Source: Wenzhouxiangella limi (lineage in GTDB: Bacteria > Pseudomonadota > Gammaproteobacteria > Xanthomonadales > Wenzhouxiangellaceae). From it: 64,000 bases of DNA. Positions 4,203-18,532 of this stretch are shown one piece after another; within the stretch, counting starts at the first letter, position 1, and each line of letters begins with the position of its first letter. The notes below the pieces were generated by a model, which had not been told where the DNA came from, ran no database searches, and saw only the letters and a list, made by a program, of their open reading frames with translations. Location: NCBI RefSeq assembly GCF_010499265.1, contig NZ_JAAGSC010000031.1, forward strand, positions 372,001 through 436,000, in the 5' to 3' direction. Both the position numbers and the translations under genes were made by a program.

Positions 4203-4407
4203 GCGACTGGACAACAGGATTCGGGTGTTCCGCGCCGAGCACCGGCTGAGCCAGGCCGAACTGGCCGACGCGATCGGCGTCTCGCGAAAGACCATCAGCA
4301 CCATCGAAGTCGGTCGATTCGTGCCGTCGACGATCATTGCGCTGAAGATCGCGCGCTACTTCAAGGTGCCGCTGGAGGAAATCTTCGTCCTGAACGACGA
4401 GGCCTGA
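4195..4407 (+). CDS. Short XRE/Cro-type transcriptional regulator
   Basis: 70 residues, essentially one helix-turn-helix domain. The motif LSQAELADAIGVSRKTISTI (residues about 18-37) is the classic HTH, and YFKVPLEEIFVLND closes the fold. The YozG/YgzD-like length and the eight-base overlap with the upstream membrane-protein gene suggest autoregulation of the pair. The tandem TTAGTAAC repeat 5' of the first gene is a candidate site. Function as a DNA-binding protein is near certain; the target is inferred. Confidence 0.9.
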   Translation: MSERLDNRIRVFRAEHRLSQAELADAIGVSRKTISTIEVGRFVPSTIIALKIARYFKVPLEEIFVLNDEA

Positions 4408-4584
4408 GGCCGGTTCAACGTTCCGGCATAACCGCTTGAGCGCGACCACCAATTCATGAACGGCAGGGCCGGCACTCGCCGCCCCCGTGAGCCCGCTTGA
4501 CCTGATTTCAACCCGAAACCGTCATCCGAAGCGCTCCCGCTCAGCTCGCACCAATTCTTTTCCTTGACCAATGGAGATCCACAC

Positions 4585-5964
4585 ATGAATGCGCTTTTCC
4601 GAATGAACATCACCTTGCTCCTCGTTCTCGGTGCGGCCGCGCTGGGTGCCGAAACGCCGGCCGATTGGCCTGCCGGTTACTGGCGAGGGACGCTGCAGGC
4701 CGGCGAACAAGAGCTGGAAATCGTCTATCGCCTCGAAATGGATGCCGACGGCGCATGGGCCGGAAGCATGGACGTGCCCGCCCAGGGCGCCTCGGGCCTG
4801 CCGCTGCAATCGGTCGAGATCTCTGGCGATTCGATCATGATTACGATGCCGATGGCGGGCGACGCACGCTTCCGGGGCCGGTGGACGGCTGCAGAAGAAC
4901 GCGTTGAAGGTCGATTCAGCCAGGCCGGACAGTCCTTCCCGATGGTGCTCAAGCGCGCGGAACGGGGTGAAGCCGGCCCGGTTCGGCCGCAGGAACCGAA
5001 GCCGCCGCTGCCTTACCGTTCGGAGTCCGTCAGGTTTTCGAACCTCGGCACGACTTTGGCCGGGACGGTTACGCTGCCCGGTGACGACGGTCGGCACGCG
5101 GGAGTCGTGCTGGTTTCCGGCGCCGGGCCGCAGGACCGCGACGGGACGTTCATGAATCACCGTTGGTTGCTGGTAATGGCTGACCACCTGACCCGCGCCG
5201 GCTTTGCGGTGCTTCGGTTCGACGAGCGCGGCGTGGGGGAATCGGAAGGAGATTTCGCGACGGCCACCGCCGGGCAGCTGGCCGGCGATATCGCCGCTGC
5301 GGCCGATTTCCTGCGCGGCCACGACTCGGTGGACCGAGGGCAGGTCGGAATCATTGCCCACTCCGAGGGCGGGAGGCTCAGCGCACTGGCCATCGAAAAC
5401 CAACAGGCGGCCGATGCGCTGGTGCTGCTCGGCGCGCCGGCCCTACCCGGCATCGCGGGACTGAACGCCCAGGCTGCGCAATCCCCCATCGCTGCTCTTC
5501 AGCTTGCAGTAGCCGAGGCTTCCCTGCGGCTCGAGCCCGGCGCGAATCCCGAACCGGCCATGCGTGCTGCAGCCGAGCAACTGCTGGCCAGCCTGGCCGA
5601 AGACCAGCTCGCGGCGTTCGGCGGCAACGAAAGCCTGATCGTCAACCAACTGGTGCAGGCGCTGGGCCAACCGCAGACGCAATTCACGCTGAGCTTCGAC
5701 CCGCGACCCGCACTACGGTCAGCCGGCATCCCGGTGCTGGCGCTATACGGCAGCAAGGACCAACAGGTGGATGTCGCCGGCGCGGCAGAAGCCTTGCGCG
5801 ATGCGCTGGGGGATCGTGGCGATGTCCGCACGCTTGGCGGACTGAACCATTTCTTCCAGGAGGCCGAAAGCGGCGCGCCGAGCGAATACGCGACGATCGA
5901 ACAGACGATCTCGCCGGTAGCGCTGAAGGCGGTCGCGGAATGGCTCCGATCGAACGCGCAATGA
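4585..5964 (+). CDS. Secreted alpha/beta hydrolase
   Basis: 459 residues from the ATG at 4585, which has a GGAG eight bases upstream and a fitting signal peptide (MNALFRMNITLLLVLGAAAL). The open frame itself extends upstream to an ATG at 4564. After the signal come an N-terminal beta region (about 25-130) and an alpha/beta-hydrolase core (about 150-455). The core has the oxyanion loop VSGAGPQDRDG, the nucleophile elbow IIAHSEGG, an acid region YGSKDQQVD and the histidine in GGLNHFFQE. The elbow has Ala instead of Gly at its first position. Such proteins are usually annotated as S9-like or alpha/beta-fold hydrolases; the substrate cannot be told. It stands alone between the XRE pair and the mobile-element remnants. 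Confidence 0.8.
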   Translation: MNALFRMNITLLLVLGAAALGAETPADWPAGYWRGTLQAGEQELEIVYRLEMDADGAWAGSMDVPAQGASGLPLQSVEISGDSIMITMPMAGDARFRGRWTAAEERVEGRFSQAGQSFPMVLKRAERGEAGPVRPQEPKPPLPYRSESVRFSNLGTTLAGTVTLPGDDGRHAGVVLVSGAGPQDRDGTFMNHRWLLVMADHLTRAGFAVLRFDERGVGESEGDFATATAGQLAGDIAAAADFLRGHDSVDRGQVGIIAHSEGGRLSALAIENQQAADALVLLGAPALPGIAGLNAQAAQSPIAALQLAVAEASLRLEPGANPEPAMRAAAEQLLASLAEDQLAAFGGNESLIVNQLVQALGQPQTQFTLSFDPRPALRSAGIPVLALYGSKDQQVDVAGAAEALRDALGDRGDVRTLGGLNHFFQEAESGAPSEYATIEQTISPVALKAVAEWLRSNAQ

Positions 5965-6036
5965 CAGGGTCGATTGGTCGCCGGCAGCCGGATCGCCTTC
6001 CCGGTCCACGAAACAACACGCTAACGAAACGCGCCG

Positions 6037-6780
6037 CCCGGCGACGCGCTTCGGCTCCACATGCTGTTTCTCGATGGGGTCTACGTGGTGGATTCGCCCC
6101 ACGACAACCGAGCCCGATTCCATTGGGTACGCGAACCGACGTCGGCCCAGTTGACGCAACTGGCCCACACCACCGCCCGCCGGGTGGGGCGGATGCTGGA
6201 ACGCGAAGGCTTACTGGAGCGCGACATCGAGCAGCTTGACTTTAGCGATGTGCTGGACGAAGAGGACCCAGCGCAGGCAATGGAGGCTTTGCGACTTTCC
6301 GCGCCAGCGTAATGAAGCGAAGCCGGAATGCCGTTGCGCGTGACCGATCTGGTCGGCCACTCCATCACCTACCGCATTGCCATCGGCCCACACCGCGGCC
6401 GCAAGGTATTCACCCTCCAGACTCTACCGACTTTCGATAAGCAGGACTGGGCAACTGGCGGCCCCGGCAACGTGGCGGGGTTCTCCTTGCACGCCGGTGT
6501 GGCGGTCAAAGCCTGCCAGCGCGACAAACTCGAGCGACTGTGCGGATACATCTGCCGTCCTCCCGTGTCGGAAAAGCGCCTGTTCCTGACGGCACGCGGC
6601 GACATCGGCTACACACTGAAAACCCCGTACCGCCACGGAACGACCGACGTGATCTTCGAGCTACTGGATTTCATCGCTCGGCTGGCGGCGCTTGTGCCGC
6701 CGCCGCGTCTCAACTTAACCCGCTTCCACGGCCTATTCGCACCCAACAGCCCGTACTTGTTGATTTGCACCCAAAAGTGA
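6037..6780 (+). mobile_element. IS91-family transposase remnant
   Basis: Decayed C-terminal half of an IS91/ISCR-type Y2 rolling-circle transposase. One frame gives LRLHMLFLDGVYVV, FHWVREPTSAQL, RVGRMLEREGLLERD, then two consecutive in-frame stops (TAA-TGA at 6310-6315). It resumes as HSITYRIAIGPHRGRKVFTL, AGFSLHAGVAVKA, LERLCGYICRPPVSEKRL, LKTPYRHGTT, LDFIARLAALVPPPR and LTRFHGLFAPNS. The family match is strong, but the N-terminal zinc-ribbon and first HUH parts are gone. After FAPNS (about 6750) the frame leaves the family consensus and enters the 57-bp inverted-repeat element. It is dead as a transposase. Confidence 0.85.
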
Positions 6781-8685: not shown

Positions 8686-10040
8686 TGCCGCTGTACCTGC
8701 GCATTTTTCTGGGCTTCTGGCTGGTGATCGTCCTGACGTTGAGCGCGGTGGTGCTGGTCAACCTGCAGCTTCAGCGAGACCAGGACGCGGCCGCCGAAAT
8801 GGGTCAGCGGGCTCAGCGTTTTGCCGAGGGCATGGGTGGGCGGGCCCAGGCGGTACTGGATCGCGGCGGCCCCGCGGCGCTGGCGCGCTGGGCCCGAGGA
8901 GATCAGCAACGTCACCGTCGCATCACCGTGCTGGTCATCGACGATACTGGATCTGAGCTGCTGGGGCGGCGCGTGCCGACCAGGGCGCGCGCTGTGGTCA
9001 GTAACTGGCTGTCGGGACGAGCCCTGGAGGCGCCGTTGCCGGGGGCGCAGGTAATCAGTCATCCCCGGCATGGCGAGTTTCTGGTGCTGCTTGTGCCCCC
9101 TGCCCGGCCACTGGTGCTGCGTCTGGTCGGTCCGCTGGGGCCCTGGGGTGTGTTGGCCGTGGCCGCGGTGATCAGCGGTATCGCGTGCCTGTTTCTGGCG
9201 CGCAGCGTGACCCAACCGATCCGCGCTTTGCGCCGCGCCGGTCAGGCGCTGGGCCAGGGTCGTCTGACGACGCGGGTCGACAGGACATTGATCCAGCGCG
9301 GCGACGAGCTCGGCGACCTCGGCCGGGATTTCGATGACATGGCGGCCCGGCTTGAGCGCCTGGTCGCCGGCCAGCAGCAGCTGTTGCGCGATGTCTCGCA
9401 CGAACTGCGCTCGCCGTTAACGCGCCTGCAGATGGCGCTGACGCTGGTCGAGCAAGCGCGAACGCCTGAGGACCGCCAGCGCCACCTGGACCGCACGGCC
9501 CTGGAAATCCAGCGCCTGGATGAGCTGATCGGCCAGATTCTGAGCGTTTCCAGGGTTCGCGATCAGGCGCAGCTGGCCTACCAGCCCATGGATCTGTCGG
9601 AGATGCTGGGCGATTTGATCGACTCGATTGGCCTGGAAGCCGATGCTGCCGGCGTTCATCTCCAGGCCGACTTGCCCGACCGTCTTGCGCTATCGGCCGA
9701 CCCGGAGTGGCTGAGGCGGGCGCTGGAAAACGTATTGCGAAACGCGGTTACCCACTCGCCGGCAGGCGGAGAGATCCAGGTCCGGGCCTGCGCGCGCGCA
9801 GGCGACCCCGGCATGGTCGAAGTCACGATCAGCGACGAGGGCCCCGGCGTCGCCGCCGACCAGCTGGAAGCGATTTTCGAGCCGTTCGTGCGCCTTTCGA
9901 TCGAGCGCAGCGAAACCGGCGCGGGCGGCGGCGTGGGTCTGGCCATCGCCAGGACCGCCGTCGAGCGCCACGGCGGGACGATTCGTGCGGAAAATCGCCC
10001 CGCGGGCGGGCTTAGCGTCACGCTCGCCCTGCCCGCCTGA
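8685..10040 (+). CDS. CpxA-like sensor histidine kinase
   Basis: 451 residues. A membrane segment at about 7-28, a periplasmic loop of about 120 residues, a second segment at about 152-172, and a HAMP linker (SVTQPIRALRRA) follow in order. The dimerisation/phospho-acceptor helix has DVSHELRSPLTRL, with His239. The ATPase domain has the N box ENVLRNAVTHS (Asn353), the G1 box ISDEGPGVA and GGVGLAIARTAVERHGG. It phosphorylates the regulator encoded just upstream, with which it shares one base. The small periplasmic domain and the CpxP-like neighbour suggest envelope-stress sensing. Confidence 0.9.
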   Translation: MPLYLRIFLGFWLVIVLTLSAVVLVNLQLQRDQDAAAEMGQRAQRFAEGMGGRAQAVLDRGGPAALARWARGDQQRHRRITVLVIDDTGSELLGRRVPTRARAVVSNWLSGRALEAPLPGAQVISHPRHGEFLVLLVPPARPLVLRLVGPLGPWGVLAVAAVISGIACLFLARSVTQPIRALRRAGQALGQGRLTTRVDRTLIQRGDELGDLGRDFDDMAARLERLVAGQQQLLRDVSHELRSPLTRLQMALTLVEQARTPEDRQRHLDRTALEIQRLDELIGQILSVSRVRDQAQLAYQPMDLSEMLGDLIDSIGLEADAAGVHLQADLPDRLALSADPEWLRRALENVLRNAVTHSPAGGEIQVRACARAGDPGMVEVTISDEGPGVAADQLEAIFEPFVRLSIERSETGAGGGVGLAIARTAVERHGGTIRAENRPAGGLSVTLALPA

Positions 10041-10043
10041 AGC

Positions 10044-10094
10044 CGCGTAACGTTTCCTGACAAAACGTGGCATAGCGCCACCCCTTGTTACGCG
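10044..10094. repeat. Nested inverted repeats between kinase and CpxP-like gene
   Basis: Three inverted repeats lie within 51 bases: CGCGTAAC (10044-10051) with GTTACGCG (10087-10094), ACGTTT (10050-10055) with AAACGT (10063-10068), and GTGGC (10067-10071) with GCCAC (10077-10081). There is no T-run, so a simple terminator is unlikely. An operator for the neighbouring response regulator, or a processing hairpin, is possible. Confidence 0.45.
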
Positions 10095-10168
10095 ACCCGG
10101 TCGCAGAATGGTCCCCGAGCTTCGCATTGTCAGAAGCGAGATTTAAACCATTTCTCAAGGAGCCGACC

Positions 10169-10570
10169 ATGAAGACCCAGACCCCCGTACTAAGCAAGCT
10201 GACCCTGGCCTTGGCCCTGGTCGGCAGCCTGGCGATCACCAGCAACGCGCTGGCCCAGGGCCATCCCGACCCCGTGCCCCGTTTGTCGGAGCGCCTGTCT
10301 CTGACGACCGAGCAGGAGACCGAAATTCAGGCGCTGTACCAGGCCCATCGCCGGGACAAGCGCGAGCAGGGTCGCGAAAACCGGGCCGAGCGTCGCCAGG
10401 CTCGCGTGATGCTGCGCGAAGAGATTCGTGCTTTGCTGGACGATGAGCAGGCGCAGAAGTTTGACGCCATGGCCCAGCGTGGCGCACAGGGCCGGCGCGG
10501 AGGCCGCCGGGATCGGATGGACGAGCGCGGTGGCGGGCGCGGCAAGCATCGTCCCGACGGCAATTCCTGA
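10169..10570 (+). CDS. Spy/CpxP-like periplasmic stress protein
   Basis: 133 residues with an AAGGAG seven bases before the ATG and a signal peptide (about 1-29, ending NALA-QG). The mature part is a charged helix bundle with the family LTxxQ-type motif (LSERLSLTTEQETEI) and a long Arg/Glu helix. It ends in a low-complexity Gly/Arg tail. CpxP binds the sensor domain of CpxA and restrains it, and Spy is a holdase for outer-membrane and periplasmic proteins. Its place directly downstream of the kinase supports a feedback role. The Arg/Gly tail is longer than in the enterobacterial proteins. Confidence 0.75.
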   Translation: MKTQTPVLSKLTLALALVGSLAITSNALAQGHPDPVPRLSERLSLTTEQETEIQALYQAHRRDKREQGRENRAERRQARVMLREEIRALLDDEQAQKFDAMAQRGAQGRRGGRRDRMDERGGGRGKHRPDGNS

Positions 10571-10719
10571 CGCTCTCGCCCGCAACGCTCGTGAAGGTGG
10601 CGGCAGCCTGCCCGACCCGGCCGGCTGCCGCCTTTTGATTATGCCGCTGCGTGGAGGCCTCTCGACGGCCGTATGCGATCATTTGCACATTGTTCAAGTC
10701 GCAGCCAGCGAGGACTACG

Positions 10720-11250
10720 ATGATCAAGCCAACATTCTATGCGCGGGTGGCAGTGATGGCGATTGCCGGCCTGACCGCGGCCTGTTCGGACGAGCCCGAG
10801 ACAGGCAGTGCCGGCGCCGCGGAAACAGCTGGGCTCCCGGACACCGTGGTCGGTACGGCGTCCTGGGACGATCACCTGCAGCGACCCATTCATCGCGTGC
10901 AGTGCGATTTCGAGGCGCCTTTCTACAAGCTACAGGCCCAGGGCCACGGCTTCGAACTCACCGTCGGGTTCTGGGGCGACGAGGCCGATCGCGTTTCCGA
11001 AGTCGACTTTGAGCAGGCCGATAGCGTCGAGCTGGTCCAGGTCACGCCCGAAGAGGAAATCTACCGCTACACCACGCTGCGGATCCTGCCCGAGATGGGC
11101 CAGGTCAGCGGATCGGAAACCTCGGCCAGCGGCACGACGCGATTGCGCTCGACCAGCCTGGCGGCGCTGGAAGAATACCGCAACGGGATCGAGCTGGATT
11201 TCGAATTTTCCTGCCCGCTCAGCGCGCCGGATCAAGCCGCAGAATCTTGA
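10720..11250 (+). CDS. Putative lipoprotein of unknown function
   Basis: 176 residues. A GAGGA lies seven bases before the ATG. The signal peptide ends in a lipobox LTAAC, with lipidated Cys22, followed by an acidic linker. The mature domain is beta-rich (HRVQCDFEAPFYKLQ, FELTVGFWGDEADRV, YRYTTLRILPEMGQV, IELDFEFSCPL) with two further cysteines that could form a disulfide. I recognise no family. It follows the CpxP-like gene and converges with nhaC, overlapping its 3' end by 32 bases. Confidence 0.65.
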   Translation: MIKPTFYARVAVMAIAGLTAACSDEPETGSAGAAETAGLPDTVVGTASWDDHLQRPIHRVQCDFEAPFYKLQAQGHGFELTVGFWGDEADRVSEVDFEQADSVELVQVTPEEEIYRYTTLRILPEMGQVSGSETSASGTTRLRSTSLAALEEYRNGIELDFEFSCPLSAPDQAAES

Positions 11251-12658
11251 AGTCCAGCGCCGCGTAAAGGATGCCGATCAGCGGCACCAGCAGCAAGAAG
11301 AACGCGTAGGGCGCATACTGCAGCGGGCTGACCCCCAGCACGCCGAACATGTAGACCGCGCAGGTGTTCCACGGAACCAGGGGGGAAGTAATCGTCCCAC
11401 CGCCTTCCAGAGACCGCGACAGCACCCGCGGATCAAGTCCGCGGTGGCGGAATTCGGCCCGAAACATCCGGCCCGGCAGGACAATGGCCATGTACTGATC
11501 GGCCGTCATCACGTTGGTGCCGAACGCAGTCAGGATGGTGGTGGTCACCAGCGAGGTGGTGCTCTGGACCATTCCGGCGATACCGGCAAGCAGCTTGCGC
11601 AGCAGCCCGGTGCTTTCCATCACCGCGCCGAAGGTCATGGCACACAGCGCCAGCCAGACGGTGTTGAGCATGCTCGACATGCCGCCGCCGCTGAGCAGGC
11701 GGTCGAGGTCGGCGTCGCCGCTGCTGATTTCCGTGCCGTCGGCCAGGGTCAGCCACGCCACTTCGACGGCCGCCAGCAGTCCGTCACCTTGAGCCATGGC
11801 CGCGACCCGATCCGGCTGAAAAACCAGCGCCCAGACCGCGCCCAGAAGGGCGCCGATGAAAATGCTTGGCAGCGCCGGCATCCTGGCCACGGCCAGGCCG
11901 AACAACACAACCAGCGGCACCAGCATGAAGACGTTGATATTGAACAGCGCGTCCAGCTGCTGCTGCATCGCCGCCAGCCCACCGGCATCGGCCAGCACTT
12001 CGCTCCCGCCCCCGATCAGCAGGTAAGCGAGCAAGGAAATGGCGAGCGCTGGGACAGAGACCCAGGCCATGTAGCGGATGTGTGCGAACAGCTCCGTGCC
12101 AGCCACCGCCGGCGCCAGATTGGTGGTATCCGACAGCGGCGACATCTTGTCGCCGAAATAAGCGCCTGAAAGCACCGCACCGGCGGTGATGGGCAGCGAC
12201 TGATCCAGGCCCACGGCCACGCCGATCAGGGCCACGCCAATGGTGGCCGCGGTGGTCCAGGAGCTGCCGATAGACAGCGATACGATGGCGCAGATCAGGC
12301 AGCTGGCGGCATAGAACCAGGCCGGGTTGAGCAGCTCCAGGCCGTAGTAGATCAGCGTCGGCACGACGCCGGCCAGCAGCCAGGTCCCGATCAGGGCGCC
12401 GACCATCAGAATGATCAGGATGGCACCCAGGGCGATGGAAATGCCCTCGACGATGCCGGCCTGGATCTCGTCCCAGTGGTAACCGTTGGTCAGGGCAATC
12501 AGGCTGCCGATGGCCGCCGCGATCAGCAGCGCGATCTGGTTCGGTCCGTAAGACGAACTGTCGCCGAACAGCCAGACCGAGGCCGCGAGCATGGCGATCA
12601 GCGCGATCAGCGGAACAAGAGCCTGGAGGTAGGACGGCGTGCGCTTCGCGGAAGTCAT
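11219..12658 (-). CDS. nhaC: NhaC-family Na+/H+ antiporter
   Basis: 479 residues, about eleven to twelve hydrophobic segments. Family signatures include the hydrophilic motif GAYFGDKMSPLSDTTNLAPA at about residues 165-184, the SLSIGSSWTTAATIG helix before it, and LVPWNTCAVYMFGVLG near the end. NhaC antiporters exchange Na+ for H+ or related solutes across the inner membrane. The gene has its own start region facing the radical SAM gene and no operon partner, and its 3' end overlaps the convergent lipoprotein gene by 32 bases. Confidence 0.9.
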   Translation of the reverse strand: MTSAKRTPSYLQALVPLIALIAMLAASVWLFGDSSSYGPNQIALLIAAAIGSLIALTNGYHWDEIQAGIVEGISIALGAILIILMVGALIGTWLLAGVVPTLIYYGLELLNPAWFYAASCLICAIVSLSIGSSWTTAATIGVALIGVAVGLDQSLPITAGAVLSGAYFGDKMSPLSDTTNLAPAVAGTELFAHIRYMAWVSVPALAISLLAYLLIGGGSEVLADAGGLAAMQQQLDALFNINVFMLVPLVVLFGLAVARMPALPSIFIGALLGAVWALVFQPDRVAAMAQGDGLLAAVEVAWLTLADGTEISSGDADLDRLLSGGGMSSMLNTVWLALCAMTFGAVMESTGLLRKLLAGIAGMVQSTTSLVTTTILTAFGTNVMTADQYMAIVLPGRMFRAEFRHRGLDPRVLSRSLEGGGTITSPLVPWNTCAVYMFGVLGVSPLQYAPYAFFLLLVPLIGILYAALDFKILRLDPAR

Positions 12659-12807
12659 GGCGTCGGGGTTCGGTCAGGCCGGAGGACTTCGGGAATGTTA
12701 CACCAAGCCCAATCGTCGCCGGTGGGCGCGTTGGCGCGGGATTGACGGCGCGACCGTTGATTATCGTTACAATCCCCTCGGTTTTCTCCATCAAGCAGGA
12801 CTGCCTC

Positions 12808-14133
12808 ATGACCATCATGGATCGCGTGCTGACCGCAGGCTTCCGTCACAACAGCAAACGCCTGACCAAGTTCGACGGCTTAACACCCAGCGAGACGCTG
12901 CCGCCACCGGACACATCGCGCACCTACATGCTCTACCTGCACATCCCGTTCTGCGTGGTGTTGTGCCCGTTTTGTTCTTTCCACCGCGTCTGCTTCAAGG
13001 AAGACAAGGCTGTCAAGTATTTCAATAGCCTGCGGCAGGAAATTCGCATGGCGCATGAAGCCGGTTACCGCTTTGGCGATATCTACGTCGGTGGCGGCAC
13101 GCCAACGGTCATGCCCCGGGAACTGGCCGAAACGCTGGAGCTGGTGCGCAAACTCAGCCCGATCGACAGCATCTCGGTGGAGACCAACCCCGATGACCTG
13201 ACGCCGGAGACCATGCAGATCGTGCGCGATGCCGGGGTCACGCGCCTGTCGGTGGGCGTGCAGAGCCTGGACAACGACCTGCTCAAGCAGATGGATCGGT
13301 ACGAGAAATACGGGTCGGCGGAAAACGTGATGGCCGGCCTGGAACGGGCCAACGGCTTTTTCGAAACCCTCAACGCCGACATGATCTTCAACCTGCCGCA
13401 TCAGACCGATGAGTCGCTGCTGCGCGACGTCGATCTGATCACCCGCGAACTCGAGATTACCCAGACCACCTTCTATCCGTTGATGAGCGCCGAGAGCACG
13501 ATGCGCAAGATGCTGAAGATGATGGGCGAGGTTGATTTCAACCGCGAGGGACACATGTACCGCCTGATCCTGGATGCCCTGCCCTCGAATTACACGCCGT
13601 CTTCGGCCTGGTGCTTTAATCACAAAGGCGATACCACCGACGAGTACGTCATTGAGAACGAAGAGTATCTGGGGCTGGGTTCGGGTTCGTTGAGCTACCT
13701 GGACGGGATGCTTTACTCCAGCACTTTTTCGCTCAACCACTACAACCGTCAGATCGCGGCGGGCAAGTTCGGCATCAGCCGCCAGCAGGCTCTGACGCCG
13801 CGCGACCGGCTGCGCTATTTCATGCTCATGAACCTGTTCGGCCTGTCGCTGGACAAGAAAGTCGCCGAAGCGAAATATCCCGGCTTTTTCCGCAAGCTTG
13901 CGCCGGAAATTCTCGGGCTCAAGATCATGGGCGCGGTGCGCGATGAAGGCGACAAGCTGGTGCTGACCCGCTACGGCATGCGGGTCTGGATCCTGATCAT
14001 GCGCGAGTTCTTCATGGCCGTCTCCGACTTCCGCGACCTGATGCGCCATGCCATCAAGGAAGAACTCGACGCGCCGGGTCCCCTGCAGATCCGCGTCCCC
14101 ACCCCCGAACTGCGGCCGCCCGGCGCTTACTGA
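12808..14133 (+). CDS. HemN/HemW-family radical SAM protein
   Basis: 441 residues from an ATG with AGGA seven bases upstream. The radical-SAM 4Fe-4S motif YLHIPFCVVLCPFCSFHRV gives Cys49, Cys53 and Cys56 (CxxxCxxC). It is followed by the SAM-binding GDIYVGGGTPTV and by ISVETNPDDL and RLSVGVQSLDNDLLKQMDR, all typical of the coproporphyrinogen-oxidase-like family. Candidates are heme chaperone HemW, oxygen-independent coproporphyrinogen oxidase, or an anaerobilin-synthase-type heme opener. The C-terminal half (FNHKGDTTDEYVIENEEYLG) does not let me choose. It lies directly upstream of the anaerobic Mo-enzyme operon but has its own leader. Confidence 0.75.
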   Translation: MTIMDRVLTAGFRHNSKRLTKFDGLTPSETLPPPDTSRTYMLYLHIPFCVVLCPFCSFHRVCFKEDKAVKYFNSLRQEIRMAHEAGYRFGDIYVGGGTPTVMPRELAETLELVRKLSPIDSISVETNPDDLTPETMQIVRDAGVTRLSVGVQSLDNDLLKQMDRYEKYGSAENVMAGLERANGFFETLNADMIFNLPHQTDESLLRDVDLITRELEITQTTFYPLMSAESTMRKMLKMMGEVDFNREGHMYRLILDALPSNYTPSSAWCFNHKGDTTDEYVIENEEYLGLGSGSLSYLDGMLYSSTFSLNHYNRQIAAGKFGISRQQALTPRDRLRYFMLMNLFGLSLDKKVAEAKYPGFFRKLAPEILGLKIMGAVRDEGDKLVLTRYGMRVWILIMREFFMAVSDFRDLMRHAIKEELDAPGPLQIRVPTPELRPPGAY

Positions 14134-14248
14134 GCAGTCAACCGCGCCTGGGTTCCGGCCGGGCGCGGATTATCCCTTCTTACTGAAACAGCGCAACCGC
14201 GAATAAATGCATCTTGCATGTATTTATATTAGATTAAGCTAATTCTAA

Positions 14249-14262
14249 TTGATGTGCATCAA
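14249..14262. promoter_or_regulatory. FNR/Anr box
   Basis: TTGATGTGCATCAA is a perfect match to the FNR/Anr/Dnr consensus TTGAT-N4-ATCAA, inside an AT-rich patch. Its centre (14255.5) is about 42 bases before the transcription start predicted from the -10 at 14287-14292, the class II activator position. It should switch on the Mo-enzyme operon when oxygen is low. Confidence 0.85.
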
Positions 14263-14286
14263 TGCGTTAGTTCTCCAACTTTGGTC

Positions 14287-14292
14287 TTATAC
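14287..14292 (+). promoter_or_regulatory. -10 element of the Mo-enzyme operon
   Basis: TTATAC lies 24 bases downstream of the FNR box and would set transcription start near 14298, leaving a leader of about 80 bases before the catalytic-subunit ATG at 14379. No good -35 is present, as expected for an FNR-activated class II promoter. Confidence 0.55.
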
Positions 14293-14378
14293 GCCCCGAG
14301 CGTGGTATCGCCTTAATCAACCGATACCTGCCACCGGAATTGACCGGATCGCCTTGACAAGACTATGGAGACGGCGGA

Positions 14379-16937
14379 ATGACTACGATCGAAAGAACGG
14401 GAATGAAGCGAAGAACATTCCTTGGTGGCGCGACCGCAGCCGGTATCGGCGCGGCGCTGGTCAGCAAGGGCTGGGGTGATGCAGCCACCTTTTTTGGCCC
14501 CGACGGTGCCGACATCGAAGGCCTCAAGCAGGCCGGCTACGAGGTTCGCCACACGCTGTGCCTGCAGTGCGGCGCCCAGTGCGGCCTGACCGGTCTGGTC
14601 AAGACCGACGCGCCGGCCGACGGCAAGAATTTCGTCATCTTCGGCAATCAGAACCCCGAACATCCCCAGCGCGGCATGTGCGGCCGCGGCGCGACCGCGC
14701 CGTCGACCTGGAACAGCCCGCTGCGTTTGAAAAAGCCCCTGAAACGGGTGGGCGAGCGCGGTTCCGGCGAGTTCGAGGAAATCAGCTGGGATCAGGCTTT
14801 CGACGAAATCGCTGCCAGGATGGAAACCATCATCGACGAAGACGGTGAGCGGGCGCTGGCGTTTACCCGCCACAACCTGTCTGAAGAGATCTCCTGGTTC
14901 CAGATGCTGAACACGCCGAACCTGATCAGCCAGGCCAGCAGCTGCAACACCGCTGGCGTCGTTGCCCGCCGCTGGATGATGGGCTCGGGCTTTCACCACC
15001 ATGCCTCCGTCGATCCGGATTACGACAACTGCCGCTTCGTGCTGCTGCCCGGACGCACCCTGAGCGCGCCGGTCGGCGCCCAGTGGCGCCTGGCCAAGGC
15101 CAAGGAAAAAGGCGCTAAGGTAGCTTTCCTCAACCCGGCCCACCCCGACACGGCTTACGGCGACGCCGAGTGGATTTCCTGCAAGCCGGCCACCGATGCC
15201 GCCTTCATGCTCGGCCTGGCCCGGATTCTCATCGACGAAAACCGCTTTGATGAGAACTTCGTCCGGCGATATACCAACCTGCCCTACCTGATCAAGGTCG
15301 ACGGTCAGCCGCTCAGCCAGGCCGACCTGGAGGAAGACGGCGACGAAAACCTGTTCAAGGTCTACGACGGCGCCGCCATCGTCGATCACGACGCCGAAGG
15401 CCTGGTGCCGGTGCTGTCCTACGAAGGCGCCGTCACGCTGGCCGACGGCAGCGAAGTTGCCGTCAGGACGGCGTGGGACCTGCTGGTCGAACATCTGGCC
15501 GACTACAGCCCGCAGCAGGTTGCGCAGATGACCGAGGTGCCGGTGGCCACCATCGTACGCATCGCTCGCACCCTGCACAGCATGCAGGGCGTGGTCGAAG
15601 ACACTTGGTACAACACCCGCAACGGCAACGACACCGACGCGGTGATGGCGCTGATGACGGTCAACGGCCTGCTGGGCAACTTTGACAAGCCCGGCGGTCT
15701 GTGCTTCCGGCCCGGCCACGGCGTGCCCGGCGGCTCGCTCAGCCGCGGTTCCGACGGCACGCTCAAGACCCGCCACGGCTATGAACTCCAGCTGCCGCCC
15801 CCAGGAACGCCCATCGACAAGCAGATGTATCCGGAAACCAACGGCACCTTCCACGCCGTCGTCGATTCGGTGTTGGGTGACAACAACGCGCCTTACCGTA
15901 TCCGCGGGCTGTTCGTGGTCGATGCAACGCTGTTCCATCGCGACAGCAACACCAAGCGGATCGAAGAGATGCTTCGAAATCTCGACCTGGTCGTGACCAC
16001 CGACATCATTCATCAGGAAGTCTGCGACTGGTCAGATTATGTCCTGCCGGCCGACATGTTTCTCGAGCGCCGCAAGCTGCGCGGGGTGGGCTGGACGTTC
16101 TCGCCCACCGCCGCCATGGCGCAGGCCGTGACCGAACCGCCGCCGGGCGCCGATGTGCGGCCGATGGAGTGGATCGCCTTTGAAATCGTCCGTCGCCTCT
16201 ACCCGGACCGGGCCAGCGCGCTGGGCTACGAAGATCGTTTCTACAACGATCCCAAGCTGTTCCAGCAAGAATATTTAGGTGCGATCGAGGACAAGCGCAT
16301 CGAAGGCCTGGCCGAAAACTGGGGGCGCAACCCCGCGCAGGTCAAAGAAGAGCTGCTGCGCGAAGGCTTCATCACCTTCCGCGATATCGAGTACGGCAAC
16401 GTGCCCTACAAGCGGTCGTTTGCCTCGCCCAGCGGCAAGCTCGAAATCTATGCCTTCCACCCGGTGCGCCAGGGATACCGCGAGTCCGGACTGGCCCGCC
16501 AGTTCGATCCGCCTGCGTTTACCCTGCCGTCGAGCAACCGCGAGTTCTACATGACCAACGGCAAGAGCGCGTCCGGTTCATCGGCGGTCGCCGGCCTGGC
16601 GTTCTCGACCCAGTACCTGGCCGACAACTCGGTCTGGATCAACCCGCAAGACGCCGAGCGCCTGCAGATTACTGATGGCGCCCAGGTTGAGCTCGAAGGG
16701 CTGGATACCGGCTGGGTTGCCACGGCCACGATGAAAGTGACCCCGAGGATTCATCCGGGCACCCTGTATACCTATTCGTACGTGGGTGGCAATCGCCAGC
16801 CGATCCTGCAGCAGACCGAGGGCTTCGAGGCCCTGGGCAAGGGCGTCAACCCCCACTGGTTCACGACCGGCTGGATCGACCCGCATACCGGCAGTGCCTT
16901 CAACAATGCATCCGTGCGTATTCGCCGGGTTGTTTGA
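14379..16937 (+). CDS. Tat-exported Mo-bisPGD oxidoreductase, catalytic subunit
   Basis: 852 residues. The Tat signal KRRTFLGG (twin Arg 11-12) sends the folded enzyme to the periplasm. A 4Fe-4S site follows (CLQCGAQC, Cys61/64/68, and Cys101 in RGMCGRG), then the molybdopterin domains. Cys189 in ISQASSCNTAGVV sits where the Mo ligand is expected in polysulfide, thiosulfate, tetrathionate and arsenate reductases, and the C-terminal domain (LFSTQYLADNSVWINPQDAE type) closes the cofactor. GGAG precedes the ATG by eight bases; a second ATG lies at 14403. Together with the Fe-S and NrfD subunits this is a Psr/Phs/Ttr/Arr-like respiratory reductase whose substrate I cannot assign. No TorD-type chaperone gene is adjacent. 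Confidence 0.85.
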   Translation: MTTIERTGMKRRTFLGGATAAGIGAALVSKGWGDAATFFGPDGADIEGLKQAGYEVRHTLCLQCGAQCGLTGLVKTDAPADGKNFVIFGNQNPEHPQRGMCGRGATAPSTWNSPLRLKKPLKRVGERGSGEFEEISWDQAFDEIAARMETIIDEDGERALAFTRHNLSEEISWFQMLNTPNLISQASSCNTAGVVARRWMMGSGFHHHASVDPDYDNCRFVLLPGRTLSAPVGAQWRLAKAKEKGAKVAFLNPAHPDTAYGDAEWISCKPATDAAFMLGLARILIDENRFDENFVRRYTNLPYLIKVDGQPLSQADLEEDGDENLFKVYDGAAIVDHDAEGLVPVLSYEGAVTLADGSEVAVRTAWDLLVEHLADYSPQQVAQMTEVPVATIVRIARTLHSMQGVVEDTWYNTRNGNDTDAVMALMTVNGLLGNFDKPGGLCFRPGHGVPGGSLSRGSDGTLKTRHGYELQLPPPGTPIDKQMYPETNGTFHAVVDSVLGDNNAPYRIRGLFVVDATLFHRDSNTKRIEEMLRNLDLVVTTDIIHQEVCDWSDYVLPADMFLERRKLRGVGWTFSPTAAMAQAVTEPPPGADVRPMEWIAFEIVRRLYPDRASALGYEDRFYNDPKLFQQEYLGAIEDKRIEGLAENWGRNPAQVKEELLREGFITFRDIEYGNVPYKRSFASPSGKLEIYAFHPVRQGYRESGLARQFDPPAFTLPSSNREFYMTNGKSASGSSAVAGLAFSTQYLADNSVWINPQDAERLQITDGAQVELEGLDTGWVATATMKVTPRIHPGTLYTYSYVGGNRQPILQQTEGFEALGKGVNPHWFTTGWIDPHTGSAFNNASVRIRRVV

Positions 16938-16963
16938 CTAGCGTCTTCTAGAGGAGAATCAAC

Positions 16964-17566
16964 ATGCGTTTACGCAGAGGACAAGAACCGACCCGCCGGC
17001 TGGCCCACGTCTGGAACGAGGCCAACTGCACCGCCTGCGGAGCCTGCATCATCGCCTGTACGGCAACCAATGCCCCGGAAATGATGCATCGCAAGGAAAA
17101 AGGCTGGGACTCCCTGGCCTCCAACATCCGGCGCATCGAAAGCCAGAATGCGCAGGGACAGCCCACGATGATGCTCAACCAGTGCCAGCACTGCGAGGAT
17201 GCGCCGTGCGTGCACACCTGCCCGTTCGGCGCCGTGCACTACACCACCGACGGCCTGGTCGACATCGACGAGCGTTTGTGCATCGGCTGCAGCTACTGTG
17301 TCGCAGCCTGCCCGTACAACGTGCGCTGGATGCATCCGGAGACGGGTTTGCCGAACAAATGCATGGGTAGCGCCTGCCTGGAGCTGGTGGCGGCCAATCA
17401 GCAGCCGGCCTGCGTCCAGGCCTGCCCGGCCAATGCGCGCGACTTCGGTGATCTGAACGATCCGAGCAGCAGCGTCAGCCAGACGCTTCGACGCCTGCCC
17501 AACCGCGTGCTGCTCGAAACCGCCGGCACCAAACCCAAGTACTTCATCGTGGAGAGCTCATCATGA
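16964..17566 (+). CDS. Four-cluster Fe-S electron-transfer subunit
   Basis: 200 residues, no signal peptide, so it is probably carried out by the Tat signal of the catalytic subunit. There are four cysteine groups: 22/25/28/32, 74/77/82/86, 106/109/112/116 and 133/138/150/154. The first three have normal DmsB/PsrB spacing. The fourth is CxxxxC instead of the usual CxxC (KCMGSACLEL), a two-residue insertion that could alter one cluster. It ends with PANARDFGDLNDPSSSVS, typical of the family. AGGAG precedes the ATG, and the stop overlaps the NrfD start in ATGA. Confidence 0.88.
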   Translation: MRLRRGQEPTRRLAHVWNEANCTACGACIIACTATNAPEMMHRKEKGWDSLASNIRRIESQNAQGQPTMMLNQCQHCEDAPCVHTCPFGAVHYTTDGLVDIDERLCIGCSYCVAACPYNVRWMHPETGLPNKCMGSACLELVAANQQPACVQACPANARDFGDLNDPSSSVSQTLRRLPNRVLLETAGTKPKYFIVESSS

Positions 17567-18468
17567 ATGTCGCCGACCTTACCCTTCAAGCCGATGTCGC
17601 CCACTGGAGCTGGACGATCGCGATCTTCCTCTGGTTTGTCGGCATTGCCGGCATGGGCTCCGTGGCCTACTACTTCAGCCGCAAGGCACCGCTGGCGATC
17701 ACGATTCTTGTATCGCTGATCGTCGGCCTGCTGTTCGTGGTCAGCCACTTGACCCGCTGGTGGAATCTCCCGGTCACGATCTTCTACGCCGTTTTGGAGT
17801 TGTCGTTCAACTTTCAGTCGTGGATGTTCTGGGGCTTTGCCATCCTGTCGGTCCACCTGGTGCTTTCAGCCGTCGTTGTTGTTGCCAATATCCCGTACCT
17901 GCAGCGTTTCTGGTTCCTGCGCTGGGCCGCGGTGTTGAACAAGAGCAATCTGTTCCTCGGTCTGTTCGCCTTCGCCGGCTTCGGGTCCACTGTCTACAGC
18001 GGCTTTCTGCTGTCGACCGCCGCCGGCGTGCCGTTATGGAACACGGCCCTGATTCCGGTGCTTTGGGTCATCAGCGCCAGCGTCGCAACGGTTGCCTTGA
18101 TCGAGCTGTTTTATGTCCTGGGCTGGACCGACGAGCGGGAAGCTGCGTTCGGGCTGCGTTTAGGAATGGGGCTGGACGTGATGAAACTGCTGGCGGTGCT
18201 GGCCTTCATCCACATCAGCCTCACCGTTGGCACGATGGGCGCCCAGATCGGGGCGGCGCGAATGTTTTCCGGTGACCTGGCCCTGATGACCTGGATCGGC
18301 GTGATCGGCATCGGCATTTTTGTGCCCTTGGCGATCGGTGGCCTGAGCCTGCTGATCGGAAAGAAGAAGCCGCTACTGATCGTCTCCTCGGTCGCGGCCC
18401 TGGCCGGCGTTCTGTTTTTGAGAGCGGTGGTCCTGCTGGCCGGTGTCTGGGAGCCGCTGGTGATCTGA
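17563..18468 (+). CDS. NrfD/PsrC-type membrane anchor subunit
   Basis: 301 residues with about eight to nine predicted membrane helices. The first has WSWTIAIFLWFVGIAGMGSV, followed by SHLTRWWNLP and a long LELSFNFQSWMFWGFAI helix typical of the family. NrfD-type subunits take electrons from menaquinol or ubiquinol, or pass them to it, without heme. It is translationally coupled to the Fe-S subunit and closes the operon, with a strong terminator 30 bases downstream. Together the three genes form a complete quinol-linked periplasmic Mo enzyme. Confidence 0.85.
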   Translation: MNVADLTLQADVAHWSWTIAIFLWFVGIAGMGSVAYYFSRKAPLAITILVSLIVGLLFVVSHLTRWWNLPVTIFYAVLELSFNFQSWMFWGFAILSVHLVLSAVVVVANIPYLQRFWFLRWAAVLNKSNLFLGLFAFAGFGSTVYSGFLLSTAAGVPLWNTALIPVLWVISASVATVALIELFYVLGWTDEREAAFGLRLGMGLDVMKLLAVLAFIHISLTVGTMGAQIGAARMFSGDLALMTWIGVIGIGIFVPLAIGGLSLLIGKKKPLLIVSSVAALAGVLFLRAVVLLAGVWEPLVI

Positions 18469-18497
18469 ACTGGCCCCGCTTTACAGGCCGGCAGTAG

Positions 18498-18532
18498 AAC
18501 GCCCCGGGTCGCTGACCCGGGGCGTTTTTTTT
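18498..18532 (+). terminator. Rho-independent terminator of the Mo-enzyme operon
   Basis: A perfect 13-base-pair stem AACGCCCCGGGTC / GACCCGGGGCGTT with a GCT loop (18511-18513) runs into a T-run ending at 18532. It stands 30 bases after the NrfD stop. Confidence 0.92.

Follow-up and report, generated by a model that had tools for sequence, protein, structure and literature searches.

The polysulfide and thiosulfate reductases PsrABC and PhsAB-PsrC combine a Tat-exported catalytic subunit, with one FeS cluster and a Cys-ligated Mo, with a four-cluster electron-transfer subunit and an NrfD-type membrane subunit. The tetrathionate reductase TtrABC, which is paired with the TtrS/TtrR two-component system, follows the same three-subunit plan, as does SoeABC, a cytoplasmic sulfite dehydrogenase with an NrfD-like C subunit. 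The respiratory arsenate reductase ArrAB(C) is periplasmic and has a Cys-ligated Mo and an Fe-S partner subunit. TtrS is a tetrathionate sensor, and its relative ThsS, encoded beside a phsAB-psrC operon, senses thiosulfate (PMC5408782); the thiosulfate sensor was predicted from such an adjacency and then proven (Daeffler et al. 2017, PMC5408782). Phylogenies that incorporate metagenome-assembled genomes contain unassigned Cys-ligated branches with PsrA/PhsA/SrrA-like hits (Wells et al. 2023, PMC10100899), so uncharacterized relatives of this group are to be expected.

The window analyzed here, a stretch of 64,000 nucleotides from a Wenzhouxiangella limi contig, contains at positions 14134-18532 three ORFs that read as one operon, A-B-C (Table 1), with a 26-bp gap between A and B and a 4-bp overlap of B and C. 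A preliminary description had ascribed to it a Tat-signal catalytic subunit with a CLQCGAQC cluster motif and a likely Mo-ligand Cys, a four-cluster Fe-S protein, and an NrfD anchor, and closer analysis bore this out. A has the Tat motif KRRTFLGG near its N-terminus, CLQCGAQC and Cys101 together provide the FeS ligands, and Cys189 aligns with the Mo-ligand Cys173 of Thermus thermophilus PsrA. The 16 cysteines of B fall into four cluster motifs (22/25/28/32, 74/77/82/86, 106/109/112/116, and 133/138/150/154). C matches PF03916 (NrfD) in a profile search (1.5e-22), and its AlphaFold model (mean pLDDT 74) is similar to the ActC and PsrC chains; the AlphaFold model of A was set aside (mean pLDDT 53.6, 13 sequences). 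The locus thus has the composition of a CISM with an NrfD anchor: a MopB catalytic subunit with an FeS motif, a four-cluster subunit, and an NrfD subunit in one operon.

TABLE 1 Positions and properties of the operon, its flanking elements, and a second PsrA-type gene
Feature	Position	Strand	Properties
HemN-like radical SAM gene, PRK08629 family	12742-14133	+	upstream neighbor, outside the complex
FNR box	14249-14262	no strand	perfect palindromic consensus
Possible -10 element, TCTTAT	14285-14290	+	putative, from reading the sequence
Catalytic subunit A	14379-16937	+	852 aa; Tat signal; FeS Cys61/64/68/101; Mo-ligand Cys189; WYNTRNGND at residues 410-418
Electron-transfer subunit B	16964-17566	+	200 aa; 16 Cys, four [4Fe-4S] clusters; best solved relative PsrB (2vpw_B)
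Membrane anchor C	17563-18468	+	301 aa; NrfD family, 8-TM-type quinol subunit
Intrinsic terminator	18496-18528	+	15-pair stem, 10 GC pairs, then T run
PsrA-like gene of the second cluster (positions in L179)	9027-11219	-	

The strong terminator of the preliminary description was recovered. The window has four terminator-like sites, compared with 4.0 expected in shuffled sequences, and the stem behind C is by far the longest. No chaperone gene adjoins the operon, as had also been stated. The HemN-like neighbor scores 435 bits to the PRK08629 family, above the cut-off, and lies directly upstream of the operon in all four congeners that have it; another congener (G025) has the gene without the operon. 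GC and GC3 of A, B, and C are those of the neighboring genes, giving no sign of a recent horizontal gain.

The box upstream of A, TTGATGTGCATCAA, is a perfect FNR box, as the preliminary description had it, and is the only perfect one in the window; allowing up to one mismatch, the window holds 2 matches against 0.80 expected. Across the genome there are 15 perfect TTGATN4ATCAA sites and none for the reversed pattern. Other perfect boxes precede hemN, narK, a NapC/NirT-type cytochrome gene, and an Rrf2 regulator gene (genes named by reading translations). Two Crp-type proteins in the genome score above the cut-off, one of which has the FNR pattern CEDCSLFNLC plus a fourth Cys. The box also recurs at the same place before A in congeners: G015 has a perfect copy (TTGATGCGGATCAA), and the copies of G005 and G013 (TTGATGCGGGTCAA) each deviate at one position. 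Given a canonical FNR protein, the genome-wide excess of perfect boxes, and a box conserved before the operon, predicted control of the operon by FNR is well supported. A consensus scan returned no sigma-70-type promoter; it is plausible that TCTTAT, if it acts as a -10 element, would set the center of the box near -41.5, a class II distance.

We placed A in two maximum-likelihood trees with PhsA from an E. coli plasmid, T. thermophilus PsrA (2vpw) and relatives, TtrA, ArrA (6cz7) and relatives, SoeA, and other molybdoenzymes. For PsrA and ArrA, sequences came from alignments; TtrA and SoeA rows were identified through similarity, gene order, and model scores rather than by experiment; and SrrA, SrdA, bSreA, ArxA, and W. 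succinogenes PsrA sequences stood outside the comparison. A and 30 homologues formed a clade of their own (100/100 support) that fell outside the ArrA/TtrA/SoeA group (99/99). Its sister was PsrA/PhsA, with support of 96/96 without T. thermophilus PsrA and 87/88 with it. Joining the clade to TtrA or to SoeA was rejected by the AU test (p 0.00011 each), and joining it to PhsA alone was marginally rejected (p-AU 0.049). The stem branch of the clade is long (about 1 change per column), which makes its separateness more certain than the identity of its exact sister. In scoring against curated NCBIfam models, A is below the cut-off for PhsA, its best model (260.5 of 694 bits), for TtrA (97 of 1750), and for ArrA (50 of 1600), and its best solved structure is PsrA (4e-57). 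A is also some 90-120 residues longer than PsrA/PhsA, with an extra stretch around residues 300-365, and some 170-200 residues shorter than TtrA. The preliminary description had pointed to the Psr/Phs/Ttr/Arr branch; its Psr/Phs part is supported, as the nearest group. The phylogeny that it had proposed could have put A firmly inside a biochemically defined clade, and A was found in a clade apart. Judged from sequence, A appears to fall in no defined clade among those compared, and its clade is a real, conserved, uncharacterized branch on the standard CISM plan. Our search turned up no tested member of the clade, and a search of the open literature for the clade or for sulfur-oxyanion respiration in Sutterella found no paper.

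The clade also differs from its relatives near the active site. The PsrA stretch TRHNVWYGDD, which includes Arg332, is replaced in A by TWYNTRNGND, a stretch of the form WYx[ST][RK]NGND. The position of Arg332, which we take to be a substrate-pocket residue of PsrA, is occupied by Trp410 in A, with an Arg or Lys four residues on; PhsA differs here too. Both the Mo-ligand Cys and a His close by (His165, corresponding to PsrA His145) are kept. A wider pattern, W[YF]x[STA][RK][NC][GA][NT][DE], matches 31/31 clade members and 0/46 of the other molybdoenzymes examined, although, having been written after the clade alignment was viewed, it describes the clade and is no independent test of it. A quick MAFFT alignment had suggested that Trp410 is invariant into SoeA; by a more careful L-INS-i alignment, this was an artefact.

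The enzyme is no orphan. Among 30 genomes of the genus, A is present in the genome under study (G000), in G013 (78%), and in G005 (77%), and the promoter and first 25 codons of A lie at a contig end in G015, giving at least four carriers, three full and one partial. Outside the genus, 120 relatives of a Sutterella genome were covered, and 27 of them carry the A-B-C operon at 34-40% identity, some in two copies; these carriers are Sutterellaceae and their relatives; the homologue scan of contigs used exact peptide patterns, which miss diverged members. With strict thresholds, no further member came from evenly drawn samples of 369 Gammaproteobacteria and of 398 genomes from the phylum. A plasmid collection gave no match to C and only matches of <60% identity to A, PhsA among them. 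The next relatives of A, and the most numerous after the clade itself, are SoeA proteins at 25-29% identity.

In the absence of TtrSR-type genes beside the window operon itself, the neighborhoods of its homologues provide the sole clue to a substrate. Of 26 non-congener loci, 8 have genes for a TtrS/TtrR-type kinase and response regulator immediately next to the operon, with divergent, convergent, or co-directional orientations, and a ninth has such a pair within 6 kb. Such a kinase occurred in 1 of 20 evenly spaced 20-kb control stretches (Fisher p 0.017), a comparison in which the loci counted are related rather than independent events and the control comes from two of these genomes only. 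All six kinases checked contain a PF12974 (Phosphonate-bd) sensor domain, and TtrS was the best NCBIfam family for each of the five kinases run (114-295 bits). The equivalog cut-off for TtrS, 750 bits, is far above these scores, and the kinases may therefore have a ligand other than that of TtrS. The response regulator at one locus (L163) has FixJ and TtrR as its best matches. At another (L187), kinase and regulator flank A-B-C on opposite sides (4383-6251 and 10961-11641). Flavoreductase-type genes adjoin the TtrSR-type genes at L163 (13992-15530) and L173 (3436-4863), where the regulator may be common to them and the molybdoenzyme operon. The top kinase score, 295 bits, belongs to a gene divergently adjacent to an A-plus-B variant (L166, 7522-10679) in a 5.5-Mb genome (G834); this variant has no C or other NrfD subunit beside it and branches deeply within the clade, apart from the main Sutterellaceae group.

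The TtrSR-type adjacency points to a sulfur oxyanion. We give roughly even chances to the reading that the complex is an anaerobically induced quinol:acceptor oxidoreductase whose most likely acceptor is an S-S sulfur oxyanion of the tetrathionate or thiosulfate type, since relatives of the operon adjoin TtrSR-type systems with a sensor domain of the PhnD type, as in known tetrathionate and thiosulfate sensors. By analogy with CISM families, FNR would turn the operon on without oxygen, A would fold with Mo-bisPGD, and Tat would export A together with B. Quinol would be oxidized by C in the membrane, and electrons would travel via the clusters of B and the cluster of A to the Cys-ligated Mo, the presumed site of acceptor reduction in the periplasm. 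The 852 residues of A and its motif, unlike those of TtrA or PhsA, count against this explanation. The preliminary description had left the substrate unassigned among sulfur, arsenic, and selenium compounds; that list is not closed, and the neighbors of the homologues now weight it toward sulfur.

A second cluster in the genome bears on whether A could instead be a diverged polysulfide or thiosulfate reductase that retains PsrA/PhsA function with a redesigned pocket. This cluster (L179; G000, contig C23, 218000-237999) contains PsrA-like, Fe-S, NrfD, rhodanese, and multihaem cytochrome genes. Its A subunit reaches 469 bits against PhsA, the G013 copy reaches 650 bits against T. thermophilus PsrA, and clusters of this strength are found only in G000, G013, and G005, the three congeners with full copies of the operon. 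A diverged Psr/Phs enzyme would therefore be redundant, and the window operon is unlikely to duplicate the PsrA-type system; two different Psr-branch enzymes per genome would argue for two substrates. PsrA/PhsA is nevertheless the nearest characterized group in both trees, a joint group with PhsA alone is rejected only marginally, the best NCBIfam model for A is PhsA, and the best solved structures are PsrA for A and PsrB for B. Set against the PhsA score of 260 of 694 bits, the separate clade, and Trp410 at the position of Arg332, these affinities leave a diverged Psr/Phs function unlikely.

Reduction of an organic acceptor (an S-oxide, an N-oxide, or some other organic compound) also appears improbable. 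The flavoreductases beside TtrSR-type genes keep it under consideration, as do the presence and duplication of homologues in Sutterellaceae, some of whose genomes encode many molybdoenzymes. Yet A is not close to DmsA-type rows or to other Sutterellaceae molybdoenzymes in the tree, PhnD-type sensor domains suit an anion, and the compound would need to be common to the lineage of the window and gut bacteria. Another inorganic oxyanion, for example, arsenate, selenate, or selenite, seems a rather poor candidate. A Cys-ligated Mo and a periplasmic location are also features of the TtrA/SrdA and ArrA/ArxA groups (PMC10100899), but the ArrA/ArxA-type rows, among them the ArrA of known structure, are placed elsewhere in the tree with good support (99/99), the ArrA model score is low, and no arsenic or selenium genes were recognized beside the operon. 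A quinone-reducing dehydrogenase that oxidizes, for instance, sulfite, like SoeABC, is a very unlikely role for the complex despite the many SoeA proteins among its relatives, because SoeA has no signal peptide and is cytoplasmic whereas A has a Tat signal, the SoeA grouping is rejected (p-AU 0.0001), and activation by FNR suits reduction.

Beyond the sulfur-oxyanion reading, we regard it as possible, if on balance doubtful, that the clade represents a respiratory molybdoenzyme family of new function, common to the lineage of the window and gut Sutterellaceae, with a distinct active-site motif and an acceptor other than those of Psr, Phs, Ttr, Arr, Srr, and Soe. Some Sutterella-type gut bacteria have large molybdoenzyme sets, most of which are not tied here to an acceptor. 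One such set can now be assigned to a defined family, recognizable by a diagnostic motif and encoded by a conserved operon. Some of the genomes also encode a two-component sensor with a measurable ligand. What the enzyme respires is thus a directly testable question. Should the acceptor prove to be tetrathionate or thiosulfate, the complex would represent a second type of reductase acting on compounds tied to gut inflammation. At two Sutterellaceae loci (L161 and L168), A-B-C is present as tandem copies ~1-2 kb apart, the second copy in L161 being cut by the end of the stretch.
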